DNA of 38,983 nucleotides from a virus. Within the stretch, counting starts at the first letter, position 1. Each line of letters begins with the position of its first letter. The stretch spans positions 1 through 38,983 of the IMG/VR virus record IMGVR_UViG_3300012984_000004. The stretch is one strand, 5' to 3'. Both the position numbers and the translations under genes were made by a program. The notes beneath the pieces were generated by a model. The model saw only the letters and a program-made list of their open reading frames with translations. It was not told the origin of the DNA and did not search any database. Positions 2,288 through 38,967 of this stretch are shown here, piece by piece.

Positions 2288-3808
2288 TTACATTATGAAA
2301 AATGCCGGTGCTTTATCTAAATCAAACCTTTCACGCATCATAAACATATCCATTACATCGGGTGATTCTCCGTTTAATTTAGTTTTCATTTCATCTTTAC
2401 CTATAATCTGGAGCTTCCCATCCATATCTGCTTTTTTACGCTTTATTGCTTTTCTTTCGAACATGAAGCGTTGTTTAAAAGTATTTTTATCATCATACAT
2501 TGTATTGGCTACTTCTTCAGATATCTTATACAACCCTTTATTTACTTTGTCTCCAGAACGATAATAACATTGTGTTTTTAGGTTTTGGTAATTCTCTTTT
2601 TTTTCTTTTTCTTCTTTAGTTGCGTTATCAGGCAAGTCCGGATTAGGAAAAGGAGAAGCTCCATTGTTAAACGGTATTGCCCCAACTATAAACCCATCTA
2701 TAAAACCTCCAACTCCATCAGCATCGTAGGTTATGTTTTTGTTCTGGCATTTAATTTCTTTAGCCATATCAGTAATAGCGTCAATCACTTCTTTACCATC
2801 ACTTTTATTAAGTATTTTTATTTTAACTAATTCCCTTCCTAACCAACCACCAACAATGAATTTGTCAGATCCTTTCAATGCAATATCCGCTGTTATGTAT
2901 GGAGTTGAATCTTCTAATTGATATGTGTTATTAAACAATCCTCTTGTTGAAGCATAATCATAAATATCATTATCTGATATTACAGTTTTCCAGTTAGAAT
3001 GCAAAAGTGCCGCTTGAGTATCTTTATCCTGTGCTAATAAATTACCTAAGTATGCAGGATTTTCTTTTAAAAGTTCTTTGTTATCGTAAATTGATCCACC
3101 GATAAAAGTAACTGATTTCACGAATTCACTCGGATCTATTTTTGATTTTAAAACTACATCTTCTAAAATGTGCCATCCTTTTTGAATGACTTCTTCTTTT
3201 GAATCGCCCCAAATATAATTTTCACCATCAACAATTAAATAACGTAAAACTCCTCGTCTTTCCGGTATTGCAAAACCTGTATCTTGGTCTATCCACCACG
3301 ATATAAACTCAGCAACCCATGAATCAGGGTCAGGATTACATGTTGCTCTAACATATGGATTTACGCCACAAACAGAACGATTACGAGTAAGCAAGTAAAA
3401 GAACATTTTCTTTGTAAAATGCGTAAGCTCGTCAAACCCAATCAATGGTATTTGCGAGCCTTGCCAATCGTAAATATTTTTTTCGTATTCTAAATTAGAG
3501 AATTTTAGTTTTGATTTACCAAACATCCATTCTAAACTGCTTTGTCTCGGAATAGCATCTAAACAGGAGTATAATTGTATTGACGTATCCCATAATCCGC
3601 CCTCGTTTCTAATTTGTGGGTTTGTTCTTCTGAAGATAACTGATCCGAAGCCTTCAATATCTTTGTGTCTTATAGGCTCTAAAAGCAATGAGAAAGTTTT
3701 CCCAACTCCTGCAGCACCGCCACCGATGCAAATATCAGCAGGAGAAGAAGCGAAATCTAATTGATATCCTTCTTGTGGCGTAATTATTTTTACATTACTT
3801 TCTGCCAT
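2288..3808 (-). CDS. terL: terminase large subunit (TerL)
   Basis: 506 aa packaging motor: an N-terminal ATPase and a C-terminal RNase H-fold nuclease that cuts the DNA concatemer. The Walker A motif GGAAGVGKT is at residues 30-38, and a Walker B region with the catalytic pair, GFDELTHF, has D126 and E127. Nuclease aspartates are plausible at D308 (YITADIAL), D362/D364 (TYDADGVGG) and D484 or D487 near the C-terminus (SPDVMDMF). The start overlaps the TerS end by 14 bases. Its length is slightly above typical TerL. It works with TerS (3795-4325) and docks on the portal encoded directly downstream. Confidence 0.95.
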   Translation of the reverse strand: MAESNVKIITPQEGYQLDFASSPADICIGGGAAGVGKTFSLLLEPIRHKDIEGFGSVIFRRTNPQIRNEGGLWDTSIQLYSCLDAIPRQSSLEWMFGKSKLKFSNLEYEKNIYDWQGSQIPLIGFDELTHFTKKMFFYLLTRNRSVCGVNPYVRATCNPDPDSWVAEFISWWIDQDTGFAIPERRGVLRYLIVDGENYIWGDSKEEVIQKGWHILEDVVLKSKIDPSEFVKSVTFIGGSIYDNKELLKENPAYLGNLLAQDKDTQAALLHSNWKTVISDNDIYDYASTRGLFNNTYQLEDSTPYITADIALKGSDKFIVGGWLGRELVKIKILNKSDGKEVIDAITDMAKEIKCQNKNITYDADGVGGFIDGFIVGAIPFNNGASPFPNPDLPDNATKEEKEKKENYQNLKTQCYYRSGDKVNKGLYKISEEVANTMYDDKNTFKQRFMFERKAIKRKKADMDGKLQIIGKDEMKTKLNGESPDVMDMFMMRERFDLDKAPAFFIM

Positions 3809-8437: not shown

Positions 8438-8648
8438 TTTTATTTCTTTTTGGTAAGTCATACGAAATATTTTCTGTTTCTAATACCCATTCTAAAATAG
8501 CTATTTTGCATTGTTGTAAATAAGTATGATTTTCCACAGATTCCATTTCTAAAACATCTATATCTTTTTTTTGTAGATAATTATTATCTAATTTAATAAG
8601 TTCAATAAAGTGGTTAATTTTATTCTTTATTTCTTCTTCTGTTCTCAT
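8430..8648 (-). CDS. hypothetical protein, 72 aa
   Basis: A small acidic, mostly helical protein: MRTEEEIKNKINHFIELIKL, then QKKDIDVLEMES, and QQCKIAILEWVLETE near the end. The pattern of two long helices is common among small phage proteins located next to helicases or methyltransferases. It overlaps the methyltransferase start by 8 bases (ATGACTAA). No family is recognised. Confidence 0.65.
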   Translation of the reverse strand: MRTEEEIKNKINHFIELIKLDNNYLQKKDIDVLEMESVENHTYLQQCKIAILEWVLETENISYDLPKRNKND

Positions 8649-8685
8649 AATCTATTTTTTTTAGTTAATATTCGCTTTGGGTGGG

Positions 8686-34368: not shown

Positions 34369-34818
34369 TTATATAAATCTTTTTTCAACATCCAACGCTT
34401 CAGTTACACTAATCGGTATCATTTGGCTGTTTATTTGTTTTTCAGCCTCATAATACCATACTTTAATTATTTGCAAAGCAGATTGAATAAAAATATCAGG
34501 TACTAATTCTGGCGCAGTATAACCAACATTCAATTCAACTGTTTTTACATCAGGATAAATTGTATAAGTTGAACGAACGACAAACCACGGCGCCGGATCG
34601 GTTACAACTGAATTAATAGGATAGTCATAAACTTTTACTTGGCAGGATCCATTATAAACAATGTTGCGAGCATACATAAAGTGTCGTGTTCTTTGCTCAA
34701 CGTATCGCAATGACGCATTAATCATTGAAGTAATATCTGCATCATCTTCGGTTAAATCCGAATCAATACGAAGATAGTTCTTTGCTCTTTCAAGTGTTAT
34801 GACATCCAAATAACTCAT
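34369..34818 (-). CDS. head-tail connector (HK97 gp6-like)
   Basis: 149 aa. DVITLERAKNYLRIDSDLTE, DDADITSMINASLRYVEQRT and FIQSALQIIKVWYYEAEKQ match the gp6-like head-tail connector family, mostly helical with a beta hairpin in the middle (VYDYPINSVV, TVELNVGYTAPELV). It forms the ring below the portal. The start overlaps the 49-aa gene end by one base. Confidence 0.82.
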   Translation of the reverse strand: MSYLDVITLERAKNYLRIDSDLTEDDADITSMINASLRYVEQRTRHFMYARNIVYNGSCQVKVYDYPINSVVTDPAPWFVVRSTYTIYPDVKTVELNVGYTAPELVPDIFIQSALQIIKVWYYEAEKQINSQMIPISVTEALDVEKRFI

Positions 34819-34967
34819 TACTTTTTATTTTTATGTTTTTTAACAGGTTTTGTTTCGTTGGTAGTCGCTGTTTTAATACGACATAAGTACTCGCCTCTTT
34901 TGTCTGAAACATCAATACTGTCTCCTATCAAATGACTTAAGTAATTTTTCAATAATGTGATTTTCAT
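34818..34967 (-). CDS. small head-module protein, 49 aa
   Basis: The ATG at 34967 (MKITLLKNYLSHLIG) is used because the frame upstream contains the divergent promoters. The core GDSIDVSDKRGEYLCRIKTA is followed by a Lys-rich tail (KPVKKHKNKK). The core resembles the C-terminal 43 residues of the glycosyltransferase (VGEIVDLPKERAYSAIERG). Such small proteins are common between capsid and connector genes in phages, and their role is unknown. It is the first gene after the minus-strand promoter at 34983-34990. Confidence 0.65.
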   Translation of the reverse strand: MKITLLKNYLSHLIGDSIDVSDKRGEYLCRIKTATTNETKPVKKHKNKK

Positions 34968-35002: not shown

Positions 35003-35033
35003 TTTGCGTATTTAAAAAATAGTTATACATTTG
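35003..35033 (+). promoter_or_regulatory. consensus plus-strand promoter of the moron-like unit
   Basis: TTTG (35003-35006), exactly 19 bp, TACATTTG (35026-35033): a full match to the Bacteroidota promoter and the only clear plus-strand one I found. GCGTATTTAAAAAA after the TTTG resembles the phage early promoters. Transcription should start near 35038, at the first base of the leader hairpin. Confidence 0.82.
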
Positions 35034-35037
35034 TTTA

Positions 35038-35119
35038 GTAAAGAAGTCGGAAGCTTTACAATGGAAAATATTATTAAGACTCTTTAGAACTGCCGACTCA
35101 GTTTTATTGGGTCTTTTTT
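35038..35119 (+). ncRNA. structured leader RNA with complementary loops and terminator
   Basis: Hairpin 1: GTAAAG (35038-35043) pairs with CTTTAC (35054-35059), with a 10-nt loop containing AGTCGG (35045-35050). Hairpin 2: AAGACTC (35076-35082) pairs with GGGTCTT (35109-35115), with an inner stem AACTG/CAGTT (35088-35092 and 35099-35103), a loop of exactly CCGACT (35093-35098), and a following T-run (35114-35119). AGTCGG and CCGACT are perfect complements, so the two loops can kiss. The hairpin followed by T is a terminator located before the first gene, so this is either a small RNA of about 80 nt or an attenuator for the two genes downstream. Confidence 0.6.
35061..35087 (+). CDS. possible 8-aa leader peptide (MENIIKTL)
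   Basis: ATG GAA AAT ATT ATT AAG ACT CTT TAG lies between the two leader hairpins and ends inside the terminator stem. GGAAG, seven bases upstream, resembles a Shine-Dalgarno sequence and lies in the loop of hairpin 1. Ribosomes translating it would cover the 5' arm of the terminator. Bacteroidota rarely depend on Shine-Dalgarno sequences, and an 8-codon frame can arise by chance, so confidence is low. Confidence 0.3.
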   Translation: MENIIKTL

Positions 35120-35132
35120 AATTTATATTATT

Positions 35133-35483
35133 ATGGAAACTTTTTTGAACTGTATAATTGCTTTTTTTACAGGCGTAGGTGCTGTGTGTACAATTTTATT
35201 TTTAATGGGTAAATTTAAAAATAGGCCTAGACAAAATATAAAATTAGATTTCAATACACATGTTTTACCACATTGGATTGCTAATGATCCGATGTTATAT
35301 TTTGATAAACCGCACATAGATTACGAAAAATATAAAATTCCTGAAAAACCTGAGCTACCAACGGATATTTTTAAATTTTATTATCAAGGCGAGTTTATTT
35401 GTGAAATACAACGAAAAGACAAATATAAAATTGAAGGCATTTATGATTTGGTAGAAATTAAACTAATATTAAATAACAAATAA
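35133..35483 (+). CDS. moron-like gene 1: membrane-anchored protein, 116 aa
   Basis: Residues 4-26 are hydrophobic (FLNCIIAFFTGVGAVCTILF), a signal anchor with the rest probably cytoplasmic (KFKNRPRQ follows the span). The soluble part has VLPHWIANDPMLYFDKPHID, KIPEKPELPTDIFKFYYQGEFI and IEGIYDLVEIKLIL. No family is recognised. It is one of only two plus-strand genes, with its own promoter and terminator, which suggests expression independent of the lytic programme (inference). A host-membrane role such as blocking superinfection is a common one for such genes. Confidence 0.75.
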   Translation: METFLNCIIAFFTGVGAVCTILFLMGKFKNRPRQNIKLDFNTHVLPHWIANDPMLYFDKPHIDYEKYKIPEKPELPTDIFKFYYQGEFICEIQRKDKYKIEGIYDLVEIKLILNNK

Positions 35484-35485
35484 TT

Positions 35486-35845
35486 ATGACATTAGAAGAA
35501 GAAATATCAGCTTATAAAAAAGAAATTATAAGGCTTAATTTTGATTTGTTGGCTATGAATAAACGTCATGATGAATTATTAAAAATGACAGAAGTTAGCG
35601 GAAACGATGTGATAAAAGATATAGTATTAGGCGAAGAAAAATTAGTCTCTTTAGAAACTGTAAATGGAAATTACGAATATATTTTAGGGGGTGACGGACG
35701 TTCTCAACCTTGGAGCCAGATAAGGAGCGGATATATTTGTAATGTAACTTTAATGCCTAATATTTATTTAAGTAATAATCATAGAGACTTTATAATAAGA
35801 TATTTGAAAAACGAACTAAAAGTAAATGATGTAAATATTTTATAA
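35486..35845 (+). CDS. moron-like gene 2: soluble protein, 119 aa
   Basis: Follows gene 1 by two bases. An N-terminal coiled coil (LEEEISAYKKEIIRLNFDLL, then AMNKRHDELLK) is followed by a beta-rich domain (GEEKLVSLETVNGNYEYILG, GYICNVTLMPNIYL) and a final helix (FIIRYLKNELKV). Its close coupling to the membrane protein suggests a complex of the two. No family or catalytic motif is recognised. The plus-strand terminator begins just after its stop. Confidence 0.75.
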   Translation: MTLEEEISAYKKEIIRLNFDLLAMNKRHDELLKMTEVSGNDVIKDIVLGEEKLVSLETVNGNYEYILGGDGRSQPWSQIRSGYICNVTLMPNIYLSNNHRDFIIRYLKNELKVNDVNIL

Positions 35846-35848
35846 ACC

Positions 35849-35876
35849 AAAGCCAATCCTAATCGATTGGCTTTTC
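35849..35876. terminator. bidirectional terminator between convergent genes
   Basis: AAAGCCAATC (35849-35858) and GATTGGCTTT (35865-35874) form a perfect 10-bp stem with a 6-nt loop. On the plus strand it is followed by TCTATT and ends the moron-like unit. On the minus strand it includes the last codons and stop of the glycosyltransferase gene (EKPID, TAG). Confidence 0.85.
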
Positions 35877-36959
35877 TATTAGCTCCACCAACCCTCTTTC
35901 GATTGCTGAATAAGCACGTTCTTTTGGTAAATCAACTATTTCACCAACTTTGTAAACCTGAACTATAGCGGTAATACGAACAGTTACCATATTTTCTTTA
36001 TACCACTGCATTGATAATTCAAAGAAATTATTCCAATGTTCTTCTTTGCCTAATTCTTCAAATTCAGGTACTTTTAATAAGCGTTTTTCTATTTCTGAAT
36101 AATCAATTCCATTCATTTCAAACGGCACAATATAACCGTTAATTCCGTGTGTAATCTGCTCTTTTCCGGATGCAAAAGGTGTAATTATGCAAGGAGTTTT
36201 TACTTGCATTGCTTCGTAAACAGAATATGCGAATCCTTCGGTATCTGATAGCTGTACTAAATAATCTGCTTTGTTAATTTCTTTGAATGGCTCAGTTGTG
36301 ATACCTTTAAAAAACACATTAGGACAATCGTCAAACTGTTTTAGCAATTGTTTTCCGTAAGCATGTGAATCATCACCAAATATATTCCAAAAGTAGTCTA
36401 TACCTAATGAATCCATTTTTTTAGCCATTATATGCATTCGCTCAAATCCTTTTTCGCCTGACAAACGAGAACACGTAATCAATGAAAGTATTTTGTTTTT
36501 CTTTTTAGGCGAGTATTTATGAGTATTATCCAATAAATTATAAATAACCGCGTCACATTTCAAACCTGTAGTCGCTTCAAAACCTTCTTTTACAATTTCA
36601 CCAACGCAAACATGGTGTGTAACTTTTGGGTGCTTTTTATACTTGAATGCCCAGCCCGAAATAACCACCCTATAATCAGCGTGAACCGTTTGAATATAAA
36701 CTTTTGAATCTATTACATCAAATGCACTTTTACCCCATGCAGAAGCCGAAATAAACACATCGCATTTATGTCTTTGTTTGAAATTTATCTTTTCTACGTT
36801 GCAATATTTTTGTATTTCTTCAATCAAGTGCTGTGAAGCTACGTTATCATACAACAAAGTTACATCGTGGTGTTTTGACATTCTTTTGCAGAAGTTTTTA
36901 GTGAAGGTTTCCACACCGCCCAATAAATTCCAATTGCTTAAATAAATAATTACTTTCAT
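35859..36959 (-). CDS. GT-B glycosyltransferase (family 4-like) with fused C-terminal head domain
   Basis: 366 aa. Residues 1-320 form a GT4-type enzyme that transfers a sugar from a nucleotide donor: WNLLGGVETF near the start (acceptor-side Gly loop), ITCSRLSGEKGFE (161-173) at the donor site, and the E-x7-E motif EGFAYSVYE (241-249). Residues 324-366, beginning with their own Met (MVTVRITAIVQVYKVGEIVD), resemble the separate 49-aa head protein at 34818-34967, so a small head-module gene seems to have been fused to the enzyme. Lying between capsid and connector genes, it may glycosylate virion proteins. Host surface modification is the alternative. TACCTTTA lies four bases before the ATG. 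Confidence 0.82.
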   Translation of the reverse strand: MKVIIYLSNWNLLGGVETFTKNFCKRMSKHHDVTLLYDNVASQHLIEEIQKYCNVEKINFKQRHKCDVFISASAWGKSAFDVIDSKVYIQTVHADYRVVISGWAFKYKKHPKVTHHVCVGEIVKEGFEATTGLKCDAVIYNLLDNTHKYSPKKKNKILSLITCSRLSGEKGFERMHIMAKKMDSLGIDYFWNIFGDDSHAYGKQLLKQFDDCPNVFFKGITTEPFKEINKADYLVQLSDTEGFAYSVYEAMQVKTPCIITPFASGKEQITHGINGYIVPFEMNGIDYSEIEKRLLKVPEFEELGKEEHWNNFFELSMQWYKENMVTVRITAIVQVYKVGEIVDLPKERAYSAIERGLVELIEKPID

Positions 36960-37031: not shown

Positions 37032-38267
37032 TTATACTGAAGGAGTTGCAAGGCTTCCTTTTACTACTGCTGAATTGTTGAATACCGCTAAAGTAATTCT
37101 TTCCTCAATTCTAAACATTACTTTGTTTTGTTTAGCCAAAGTAGAATCTTCAAACATTCTTAATTCTGGTGCAAGACGGTTGATTAATAATGTTGCCGCT
37201 CTATCAAATGCCAAGAAATTGTTAGCTCCTAATTGAGTAGTAGTCGCAATATTTAAACCAGCCACTTGTAAACGCCCGTTTTGAAAAGCTACAGTTCCAG
37301 GAGGCAAATCGTATTCTCCAGATCCTTCTGCTTTGTTCAATCCAATTTTAACACCGTCTCTTACATTTAAAATTGCCGTGTTCCCTTGGTAGAACTCAAA
37401 AGTATCTTCTGGAATTTGTCCGTATGCCGCATCTACAATTTTATCAACTGCCGCGGTAAAAGTTCCATCATATGCCGTAGCAACATCAAGCAATCCTTGA
37501 ACTGGATTAGTATCGGTTGTTCCATTTAAAATGAAATCGTTTTCAGCAACTTTTAAGCTGATAAGCATTTGAGATTGAATGTATGAAGTCATGAAATCCA
37601 AATCGTCCAACATTTCACGATCAACAATAACATAACCTGCAATCCATTTAACAAATGCAGATTGAGAAGTCAAATCGAAATCCATTTGCGCTTTATTTCC
37701 AGAACCAACAACCCATGTTGCCGCTCCGCCTTCTCCACCGTTTTGTTTTGGATAAATAACACTTCCTTTTGTTGTGCTTCCTTGTGGCAGGTAATCCGAT
37801 AACCAAACTCTGTCATAAGGTTTTGGAATAATATCGCCTCTTACGTCTTGATTCCACGGAGTAGCATCCGGAAAGTTAGCGGCAATACTCATATCCCCTA
37901 CTGCTTTCAATTCCATAACCAAATCAGGAGAACTTTTTCTAAAGCTTTGAATTGCTTCAGCATTTTCTTTGATCGTTTCAGCTAATAACTGATTGAAGGT
38001 TTTTATTTCGGCAGGCGCATTTCCTTGCGCTTGTTTCAAACGAATGTCTAATGCGTCAAGGTGATCTTGTTGCAGTTTAGACTTAGTTTGAAAATCCTCT
38101 TTTAAAGCTTTGATTTCGGCGTCAAAAGATTCTTTTGTTTTAGCTTCTTCAGCTTTTGCTTTTACTTCAAACGCATCGATTGCATTTTGAATATCTAACT
38201 TTGATTTCGTTTCAAAGTTGTTTGTAAGGTCATTTTTTAAACCTTCTAATTGTTCTTTTAATTCCAT
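37032..38267 (-). CDS. HK97-fold major capsid protein with N-terminal scaffold (delta) domain
   Basis: 411 aa. Residues 1-110 are a charged coiled coil (LKEQLEGLKNDLTNNFETKS, AEEAKTKESFDAEIKALKED), the delta domain that acts as scaffold and is normally removed by the prohead protease. The HK97 fold follows from about residue 120: DVRGDIIPKPYDRVWLSDYL, TWVVGSGNKAQMDFDLTSQS, VKWIAGYVIVDREMLDDLDF, and a C-terminal RIEERITLAVFNNSAVVKG. The protease gene ends one base upstream. Cleavage is expected near residues 115-125. Confidence 0.93.
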   Translation of the reverse strand: MELKEQLEGLKNDLTNNFETKSKLDIQNAIDAFEVKAKAEEAKTKESFDAEIKALKEDFQTKSKLQQDHLDALDIRLKQAQGNAPAEIKTFNQLLAETIKENAEAIQSFRKSSPDLVMELKAVGDMSIAANFPDATPWNQDVRGDIIPKPYDRVWLSDYLPQGSTTKGSVIYPKQNGGEGGAATWVVGSGNKAQMDFDLTSQSAFVKWIAGYVIVDREMLDDLDFMTSYIQSQMLISLKVAENDFILNGTTDTNPVQGLLDVATAYDGTFTAAVDKIVDAAYGQIPEDTFEFYQGNTAILNVRDGVKIGLNKAEGSGEYDLPPGTVAFQNGRLQVAGLNIATTTQLGANNFLAFDRAATLLINRLAPELRMFEDSTLAKQNKVMFRIEERITLAVFNNSAVVKGSLATPSV

Positions 38268-38268
38268 T

Positions 38269-38967
38269 TTACTGAATTATTAATGATTGTCTAAATTGTT
38301 TAATTTGCTCTATAATTAACGGCTCTTCAGTTCGAGTGGAATCATCCGGCTCTTCGAGTGTTTTTTTACCTAATTCATAGCTTTCTAATTGAAGCTGTTT
38401 TAATGCAATTTCTAACTGCATAAATGTTTCGTCTGTAAATTGTCCGCTTTTAACTGCTTTCAATATAACCGAAACCTGATCGTTTATTTCTCCAATAGAA
38501 TGGTTTTTAAACCCTAAAAATGGAGTTTTCGAGTTGGCGCCTAACGTTACATTGCTTCCCTCATAAAGTTTTGCTTCTTTAATTGTTCGTTTCCAATTCT
38601 CCCCCTGTAATGCTTTTGTAACAGAATATCCAATAGAATGTTCGTTTACAATTCCAAGTGCATATAATTCCAATAGATCGTTAGAATATGAAGTGTTTGG
38701 CAACGGCATGCTTTCAAAATATAATCCAGTATTGTCTTCTTTCAATTCCGAAAACTTTCCATGAGGTTTAGACCAATCGTGTTGATTAAGAAAATAAATA
38801 CTATCTTTTCGTTCTTTAATTGATTTTGCAAAAGCCCCTTTTTCAATAACATCGTCATCGTGGTCACGGGTGCCGAAATTAGCAAGATAACCAGTAACAA
38901 TACGGTTTTTATAATCGATATCTTTTACAGTACCTGAAATGCTTTTAAATTCTAACAATCCGTCCAT
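38269..38967 (-). CDS. HK97-type prohead protease (U35)
   Basis: 232 aa. It digests the scaffold part of the capsid protein during maturation. The herpesvirus-protease-like domain is recognisable from RIVTGYLANFGTRDHDDDVI, the catalytic His in FLNQHDWSKPHGKF (H63) and the catalytic Ser in VNEHSIGYS (S111). The C-terminal 60 residues are helical and acidic and are probably self-removed. It starts one base after the MuF-type gene once the circle is closed, and it spans the contig junction. Confidence 0.92.
   Translation of the reverse strand: MDGLLEFKSISGTVKDIDYKNRIVTGYLANFGTRDHDDDVIEKGAFAKSIKERKDSIYFLNQHDWSKPHGKFSELKEDNTGLYFESMPLPNTSYSNDLLELYALGIVNEHSIGYSVTKALQGENWKRTIKEAKLYEGSNVTLGANSKTPFLGFKNHSIGEINDQVSVILKAVKSGQFTDETFMQLEIALKQLQLESYELGKKTLEEPDDSTRTEEPLIIEQIKQFRQSLIIQ

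Follow-up and report, generated by a model that had tools for sequence, protein, structure and literature searches.

The unit in the head module

The analysed window is the whole of positions 1 to 38,983 (38,983 bases) of the IMG/VR phage record IMGVR_UViG_3300012984_000004. A unit at 35003-35876 on the plus strand consists of a promoter, a leader, two open reading frames (ORFs) and a terminator (Table 1), as the first-pass annotation had described it, and its statement that all other genes lie on the minus strand was confirmed for the long ORFs of the window. The neighbours had been taken for ordinary head genes, but the gene next to the downstream end of the unit (35859-36959) encodes a glycosyltransferase (Pfam Glycos_transf_1). 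The downstream terminator overlaps the 3' end of this gene on the opposite strand, and its block AAGCCAATCC is common to the relatives L006 and L012. The predicted structured leader does fold; however, the annotation had overlooked that it contains a strong intrinsic terminator (35076-35119) whose loop is complementary to that of the upstream hairpin. We infer a transcription start at the base of hairpin 1 (about 35037-35040).

Table 1. Features of the unit and of the surrounding head module
Feature	Position	Strand	Evidence
Bacteroidota-type promoter, TTTG-N19-TACATTTG	35003-35033	+	sequence; recovered again by pattern match
Leader, structured RNA	35038-35119	+	fold, comparison
Hairpin 1, GTAAAG-AAGTCGGAAG-CTTTAC	35038-35059	+	sequence, fold, covariation
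AGTCGG in loop 1, 5' strand of the loop-loop (kissing) helix	35045-35050	+	alignment, architecture scans
Hairpin 2, intrinsic terminator AAGACTC-TT-TAGAACTG-[CCGACT]-CAGTTTTA-TT-GGGTCTT, then T-run	35076-35119	+	terminator scan, fold, covariation
CCGACT, loop of the terminator and 3' strand of the kissing helix	35093-35098	+	alignment, open-loop search
Cargo gene 1, 116-aa orphan, one N-terminal membrane-spanning stretch	35133-35483	+	ORF, hydropathy, searches
Cargo gene 2, orphan protein of 119 aa; heptad-like helix at the N-terminus, recognised by eye	35486-35845	+	ORF, searches
Downstream terminator hairpin, 10-bp stem and T-run	35849-35875	+	sequence
Small 49-aa gene, other hotspot flank, adjoins the connector	34818-34967	-	profile matches, synteny
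gp6-like head-tail connector	34369-34818	-	profile match
Glycosyltransferase flanking the unit	35859-36959	-	Pfam Glycos_transf_1, E 7e-15
Capsid, HK97-type head module	37032-38267	-	profile match
Protease, HK97-type head module	38269-38967	-	profile match

The two cargo ORFs are separated by 2 nt, and the chance that frames of their own base composition stay open this long is about 1e-5 for the 116-aa protein and about 3e-6 for the 119-aa protein. Residues 7-25 of the 116-aa protein are hydrophobic (mean Kyte-Doolittle value 2.4), and the protein is probably membrane-anchored. A membrane-anchored and a coiled-coil protein had been proposed; the hydrophobic N-terminus of the first agrees with this, whereas the heptad-like pattern of the second was recognised by eye only. 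Neither protein matched Pfam (even weakly), PHROGs, the INPHARED phages or the ORFs of more than 100 related loci, and a search of 2.9 million viral contigs returned only one identical copy of the pair, in a 6-kb contig. The 119-aa protein had no match among plasmids either. The proteins thus lie outside familiar families, as had been noted. Single-sequence AlphaFold models reached pLDDT values of 39 and 48, too poor for a fold search.

The proposal that the two orphans are an exclusion or defence pair did not gain support, since neither has a homologue or a domain match in these searches and the structure models are unusable. The variable position of the cargo, the combination of a membrane-anchored protein with a soluble partner, and the DNA methyltransferases among the other cargo at the hotspot or behind the leader would fit superinfection exclusion or defence, but we regard this function as unlikely. 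The position and the leader of the two orphans say that they are replaceable cargo under separate control, for which exclusion is one possibility among several. A ToxIN-type type III toxin-antitoxin system was rejected, as the leader is by inspection a single unit and not a set of tandem repeats, and the proteins have no Pfam match.

Two observations concern other parts of the window. Most phages match the large terminase (2288-3808, minus strand) over residues 8-274 only, and its C-terminal half looks unusual. Furthermore, 45 bases at 8628-8672 (minus strand) are 80% identical to the junction of the cargo genes (35465-35506).

Variable cargo at the site

Relatives were defined as viral contigs with closely related capsid genes, and 16 of them show both sides of the site. 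Antisense cargo between the capsid or glycosyltransferase gene and the connector gene was found in seven (L006, L008, L009, L011, L012, L013 and L015), with different cargo in each, and was absent from the other nine (for L018 and L019, the length of the interval was the only criterion). The cargo includes small orphans, an N6/N4 methyltransferase (L015) and a weak methylase match (L012). L051, from the same metagenome as the contig with the identical copy of the window unit, has no cargo, and in its empty site the edge of the promoter (...AAAATATTGTTT) is joined directly to the glycosyltransferase stop. The glycosyltransferase flank is itself accessory, being absent in L015-L020. The same site was also found through the leader in contigs with less similar capsids (L058, L061-L063 and L065). 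The first-pass annotation had called the unit moron-like and had proposed the comparison of relatives as a check. The resulting pattern of presence and absence, the unit's own promoter and terminator, and the variable site among otherwise collinear phages all support this description. We conclude that the unit is a replaceable cargo operon in a head-module hotspot of a Bacteroidota (Flavobacterium-type) phage; the contigs are mostly metagenomic, and this host assignment is based on the promoter type and the phage relatives only.

Because no gene or promoter region on the same strand lies upstream within the interval in the antisense hotspot copies, a transcript must pass the terminator to include their cargo. 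The antisense orientation and the separate promoter make it likely that the unit is transcribed apart from the late genes. The cargo of L015 has the promoter and neither hairpin, and that of L013 has the terminator without a matching loop. In the Cellulophaga phages phi18:1 (L154:23590-24080(-)) and phi10:1 (L153:28248-29079(-)), the head module likewise contains an antisense gene unit; both units have a Bacteroidota promoter and no kissing leader.

Several hotspot contigs contain tRNA-related sequences. In L012 (6799-6872 and 7040-7071), a tRNA gene lies between the small gene and the leader, and just beyond there is a match to the DUF805b cis-regulatory RNA (RF02914, above the gathering score). 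L061, L062 and L063 have a tRNA-like sequence between the promoter and hairpin 1, and their leader RNA may be derived from a tRNA transcript. The 4.8-kb contig L063 has connector genes in both orientations at its two ends, suggesting that it is a palindromic assembly artefact.

Structure and conservation of the leader RNA

The leader of the window, named here as the AGTCGG class, folds better than dinucleotide shuffles (z -2.6) and forms two hairpins. The loop of hairpin 1 is AAGUCGGAAG. Hairpin 2 has two stems, a UU/UU internal loop, the 6-nt loop CCGACU and a U-run, and AGUCGG of loop 1 is the exact complement of CCGACU of loop 2. The leaders of L006 and L008 are nearly identical despite quite different cargo. 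A search with a 23-base piece of hairpin 2 returned 12 viral contigs, all of which have AAGTCGGAAG upstream, although this part was not searched for. A two-part pattern returned 38 contigs, of which 33 were real by position and structure, so that about 33 viral contigs have the AGTCGG leader, before unrelated genes. The matches in L077, L081, L082, L088, L091 and L167 and those in bacterial genomes were set aside as chance matches of the leader pattern.

A first alignment of hotspot leaders, made without structure, was uninformative. In an alignment of 22 leaders, 97.5% of the pair cells are standard pairs, and this value drops to 26-48% when the 3' side is slid by 1-3 columns. Two-sided changes occur at 14 of the 27 pairs; compensatory change was seen at every one of the six hairpin 1 pairs and at 8 of 15 in hairpin 2. 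Pair 56-85 is U-G in 22/22 leaders and pair 62-79 is G-U in 18/22, and the retention of these G-U pairs indicates a folded RNA and not a DNA palindrome. The loop of hairpin 1 is invariant among the aligned relatives. When only the outer stem and the two loop-closing bases on each side were fixed in a search, all 22 viral matches were known AGTCGG leaders with the loop CCGACT, and the inner stem beside this loop varies with compensation in the same set.

A covariance model found exactly one strong copy per carrier record. No second copy was detected in the window with this model, the architecture scan or the promoter pattern, and the leader therefore cannot control the window's own early operons. 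The start codon at 35133 lies 18 nt past the terminator stem (35115), outside both hairpins. As in an attenuator, an intrinsic terminator lies between the promoter and the coding region. As an alternative helix, only the loop-loop helix is conserved, and it is compatible with the terminator stem. A leader peptide, MENIIKTL (35062-35088), was rejected because L006 and L008 lack a matching start codon.

A common architecture with many loop classes

An architecture scan that knows the layout only (a terminator hairpin, an upstream hairpin and complementary loops) was run on full records, 1.15 Mb of phage DNA in total, and found 42 leaders, compared with 0.33 per dinucleotide-shuffled replicate. 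An earlier, stricter scan set contained 27 leaders versus 0. Over all scans, more than 15 different loop-loop pairs were found, among them the loop classes AGTCGG, GTGGTGG, TGCACTAC, GTGGAG, CCGCCAAG, GTGGAAA, GTGAGATA, GTGCAG, CCACTAC, GTTGCGG, ATGCAAG, CGTCCGAC, GTAGGAC, GTCGTAG and AGTGGAAG; their frequencies are biased, as the carrier records were mostly found via two loop classes. Three loop pairs were first seen by hotspot synteny and not by complementarity, namely GGTCTGA (L009), CGTCCGAC (L012) and TCGCTACAA (L011), and the loops of the L009 and L012 leaders read off in this way proved to be complementary and of new sequence. Weak matches that may be due to chance were set apart (window 16870, a minus-strand scan position; CCTGTT in G429; GGCATC in G022). 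The scanner misses some true leaders (e.g., those of G010 and G012 in the form that found the 42 leaders), and the counts for single genomes are therefore minimum values.

Hairpin 2 ends in a T-run and is closely followed by a start codon in almost all leaders whose gene can be read. The genes behind the leaders include early operons with an RNase H (G001), an SNF2 helicase (G019), DUF6291 proteins (G020) and ResIII helicases (G004, G017 and, by eye, G011), and leaders are also present in sense-oriented early operons. Homing endonucleases and morons stand behind kissing leaders as well. The ATGCAAG class was found in 20 viral contigs, and nine of the ten different downstream genes scanned encode homing endonucleases of two unrelated folds, NUMOD4-HNH or GIY-YIG; the tenth (the L155/L169 gene) was not assigned. 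These leaders (L062 and L155-L174) lie directly before free-standing homing endonuclease genes and are antisense in late modules in some phages. In the cultured Flavobacterium phage 11b (L152:33630-33725, NC_006356), a leader with the loops CGGGCAGG/CTGCCC and an AGUA/GAA internal loop precedes PHG11b_62/63, and the gene behind it resembles, by eye, the G020 protein. The sarcin-ricin-like AGUA/GAA loop, between the outer stem and the kissing stem, also occurs in L073, L076, L090, L112, L141 and L151. In L117:1489 and L146:17924 (minus-strand scan position), an extra small hairpin between hairpin 1 and the terminator covaries between the two phages (TTTACAC..TGTGTAA and TTTAGAC..TCTAA).

A class was never repeated within a genome: G001 and G017 have three classes each and G429 has at least five, and a label shuffle on the multi-leader genomes gave P of about 0.045 for this non-repetition. 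In the 74-kb record G429 (L175-L178), most of the leaders, at least five in number and all different, precede homing-endonuclease-like genes.

No match above the gathering threshold was found in the window with the 4227 families of Rfam 15, and no family was assigned to the leaders of L050, L009, L012, L057, L067 and L064 at E values up to 1. No match fitting the covariance model came out of 85,000 bacterial genomes scanned with an exact pattern, and the model found no copy in 399 Flavobacteriales genomes (ten candidates scored per genome). A host origin of the leader RNA was rejected on the basis of these scans. Among named phages, the AGTCGG class was not found and phage 11b has another class; searching with the terminase proved ill-suited to collecting related phages in culture. 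The searched literature contains no description of a kissing-loop leader element. This undescribed structured-RNA family seems confined to phages of one major bacterial phylum.

Proposed mechanism

Sequence comparison shows a promoter followed by hairpin 1, a linker and hairpin 2 as the terminator, with pairing between the two loops and a gene that starts shortly afterwards. Judging from these sequences, we think it fairly probable that the leaders form an undescribed family, the kissing-loop attenuators, and control how often transcription reads through into the cargo and early genes of phages. The promoter would start the transcript and hairpin 1 would fold first, followed by a 16-nt A+U-rich linker and by hairpin 2, the terminator ahead of the first gene. 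Loops 1 and 2 would then pair into a compact loop-loop complex while RNA polymerase sits at the terminator. Most transcripts would be expected to stop at the U-run as an RNA of about 80 nt, and the cargo would be expressed from read-through transcripts only. Whether and how the loops are in contact, within one transcript or with another copy of the short RNA, may set the fraction of read-through. The start site, termination in vivo and the switch, with its direction and its trigger, form the putative part of this model. Because the loops can pair while the terminator stem stays formed, the leader would not be a classical mutually exclusive antiterminator, and the pairing could promote termination, oppose it or leave it unaffected. 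It also speaks against the attenuator that some hotspot cargo (L015 and L013) is without the element.

Trp-type attenuators likewise have an intrinsic terminator in the 5' leader before the first gene and need read-through for expression, but no alternative antiterminator helix or conserved leader peptide was seen here, and the long-range contact is made by two loops whose helix can coexist with the terminator. RNAI and RNAII of ColE1 (with Rop) are plasmid kissing regulators made as separate sense and antisense RNAs. They share with the leader a loop-loop helix of 6-8 bp that uses nearly the whole loop, whereas here both loops are in one transcript and one is the terminator loop. The put RNA of HK022 and the nut sites of lambda are small structured RNAs directly after a phage promoter that are tied to termination control; they stand before distant terminators, while here the second hairpin is the terminator itself. 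IsrK of Gifsy-1 is a phage RNA with a short terminated form and a read-through mRNA form, as proposed for the leader, and acts on translation of the read-through transcript; it is an unrelated system, and its abstract describes no kissing pair of a hairpin with a terminator (PMC4825925). The homing endonuclease genes I-TevI, mobE and segB of T4-type phages are also preceded by RNA structure, in the form of hairpins that hide the ribosome-binding site and limit expression; here, in contrast, the start codon is outside the hairpin and the T-run marks a transcription stop (PMC3014915). A leader of this type was rejected, since the start codon at 35133 is not buried in a hairpin.

Alternative explanations

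The main rivals of the attenuator are recognition in trans and protein-dependent antitermination; the readings overlap, and the confidence placed in them does not add up to one. The main function could be sequence-specific action in trans, by which the short terminated RNA or a loop-reading factor acts on copies of the same leader. Each loop class would then be a separate address, and phages of the same class in one cell would regulate or exclude each other. Plasmid copy-number RNAs and the immunity RNA of phage P4 are models for such action. The CCGACT loop is kept in 22/22 viral contigs when it is left open in the search, although the neighbouring inner stem changes with compensation, and the hairpin 1 loop is kept in 12/12 contigs found by the hairpin 2 sequence alone. 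Pure cis pairing would allow the loops to drift, and their invariance therefore hints at sequence-specific recognition. The absence of doubled classes points the same way, as does the different class before each homing endonuclease of the 74-kb record; however, the P value is borderline, the genomes were sampled by class, and the missing duplicates may result from recombination between repeats, common descent or this sampling. The fairly constant linker length (mostly 22-30 nt from the pairing site to the terminator) favours cis pairing, and we consider a main function in trans possible but doubtful. A little more doubtful still is the broader proposal that Bacteroidota phages use mutually orthogonal kissing-loop RNAs as a trans address code, in which each short RNA would recognise its own class only.

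Alternatively, a phage or host protein might recognise the shape of the kissing complex or the conserved hairpin 1 loop and let the polymerase pass the terminator early in infection, just as Rop recognises the RNAI-RNAII kissing complex by shape and lambda N recognises boxB. Such an antitermination site would suit a terminator directly after the promoter of both early operons (ResIII and SNF2 helicases, RNase H and DUF6291) and cargo, and the AGUA/GAA internal loop recurs in the terminators of several classes. On the other hand, no gene for a partner protein was identified, and one protein specific for a loop sequence is hard to reconcile with the different loops that leaders have within the same genome. 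We judge this explanation unlikely. It is less likely again that the terminator merely insulates, lowering basal expression and blocking antisense transcription into the late genes, with the loop complementarity stabilising the RNA. The cassettes indeed run against the late genes and have terminators on their borders, but insulation needs neither fixed spacing nor loops whose complementarity is conserved across more than 15 different sequences, and sense-oriented early operons have leaders too. Finally, the occurrence of one leader before unrelated genes and the empty site of L051, which ends at the promoter edge, would also suit a DNA site for cassette exchange, i.e., a recombination hairpin and not a regulatory RNA. 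The position after a promoter in nearly all copies, the T-run, the orientation, the conserved G-U pairs, the different loop sequences inside one genome and the different flanks outside the hotspot make this very improbable.

Implications

Phage gene regulation in Bacteroidota is little known, and the leader adds an undescribed structured-RNA family to it. The design exists in many versions that do not cross-match, which makes it useful for synthetic biology, and with Flavobacterium phage 11b a carrier is in culture in which the mechanism can be tested. If the address code were true, homing endonucleases, morons and early operons would be dosed separately, and co-infecting phages of the same class would interfere with each other much like incompatible plasmids. 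In these phages, a gene directly behind a kissing leader, including those of the two orphan proteins described here, is a candidate for an early, homing or host-modifying function.
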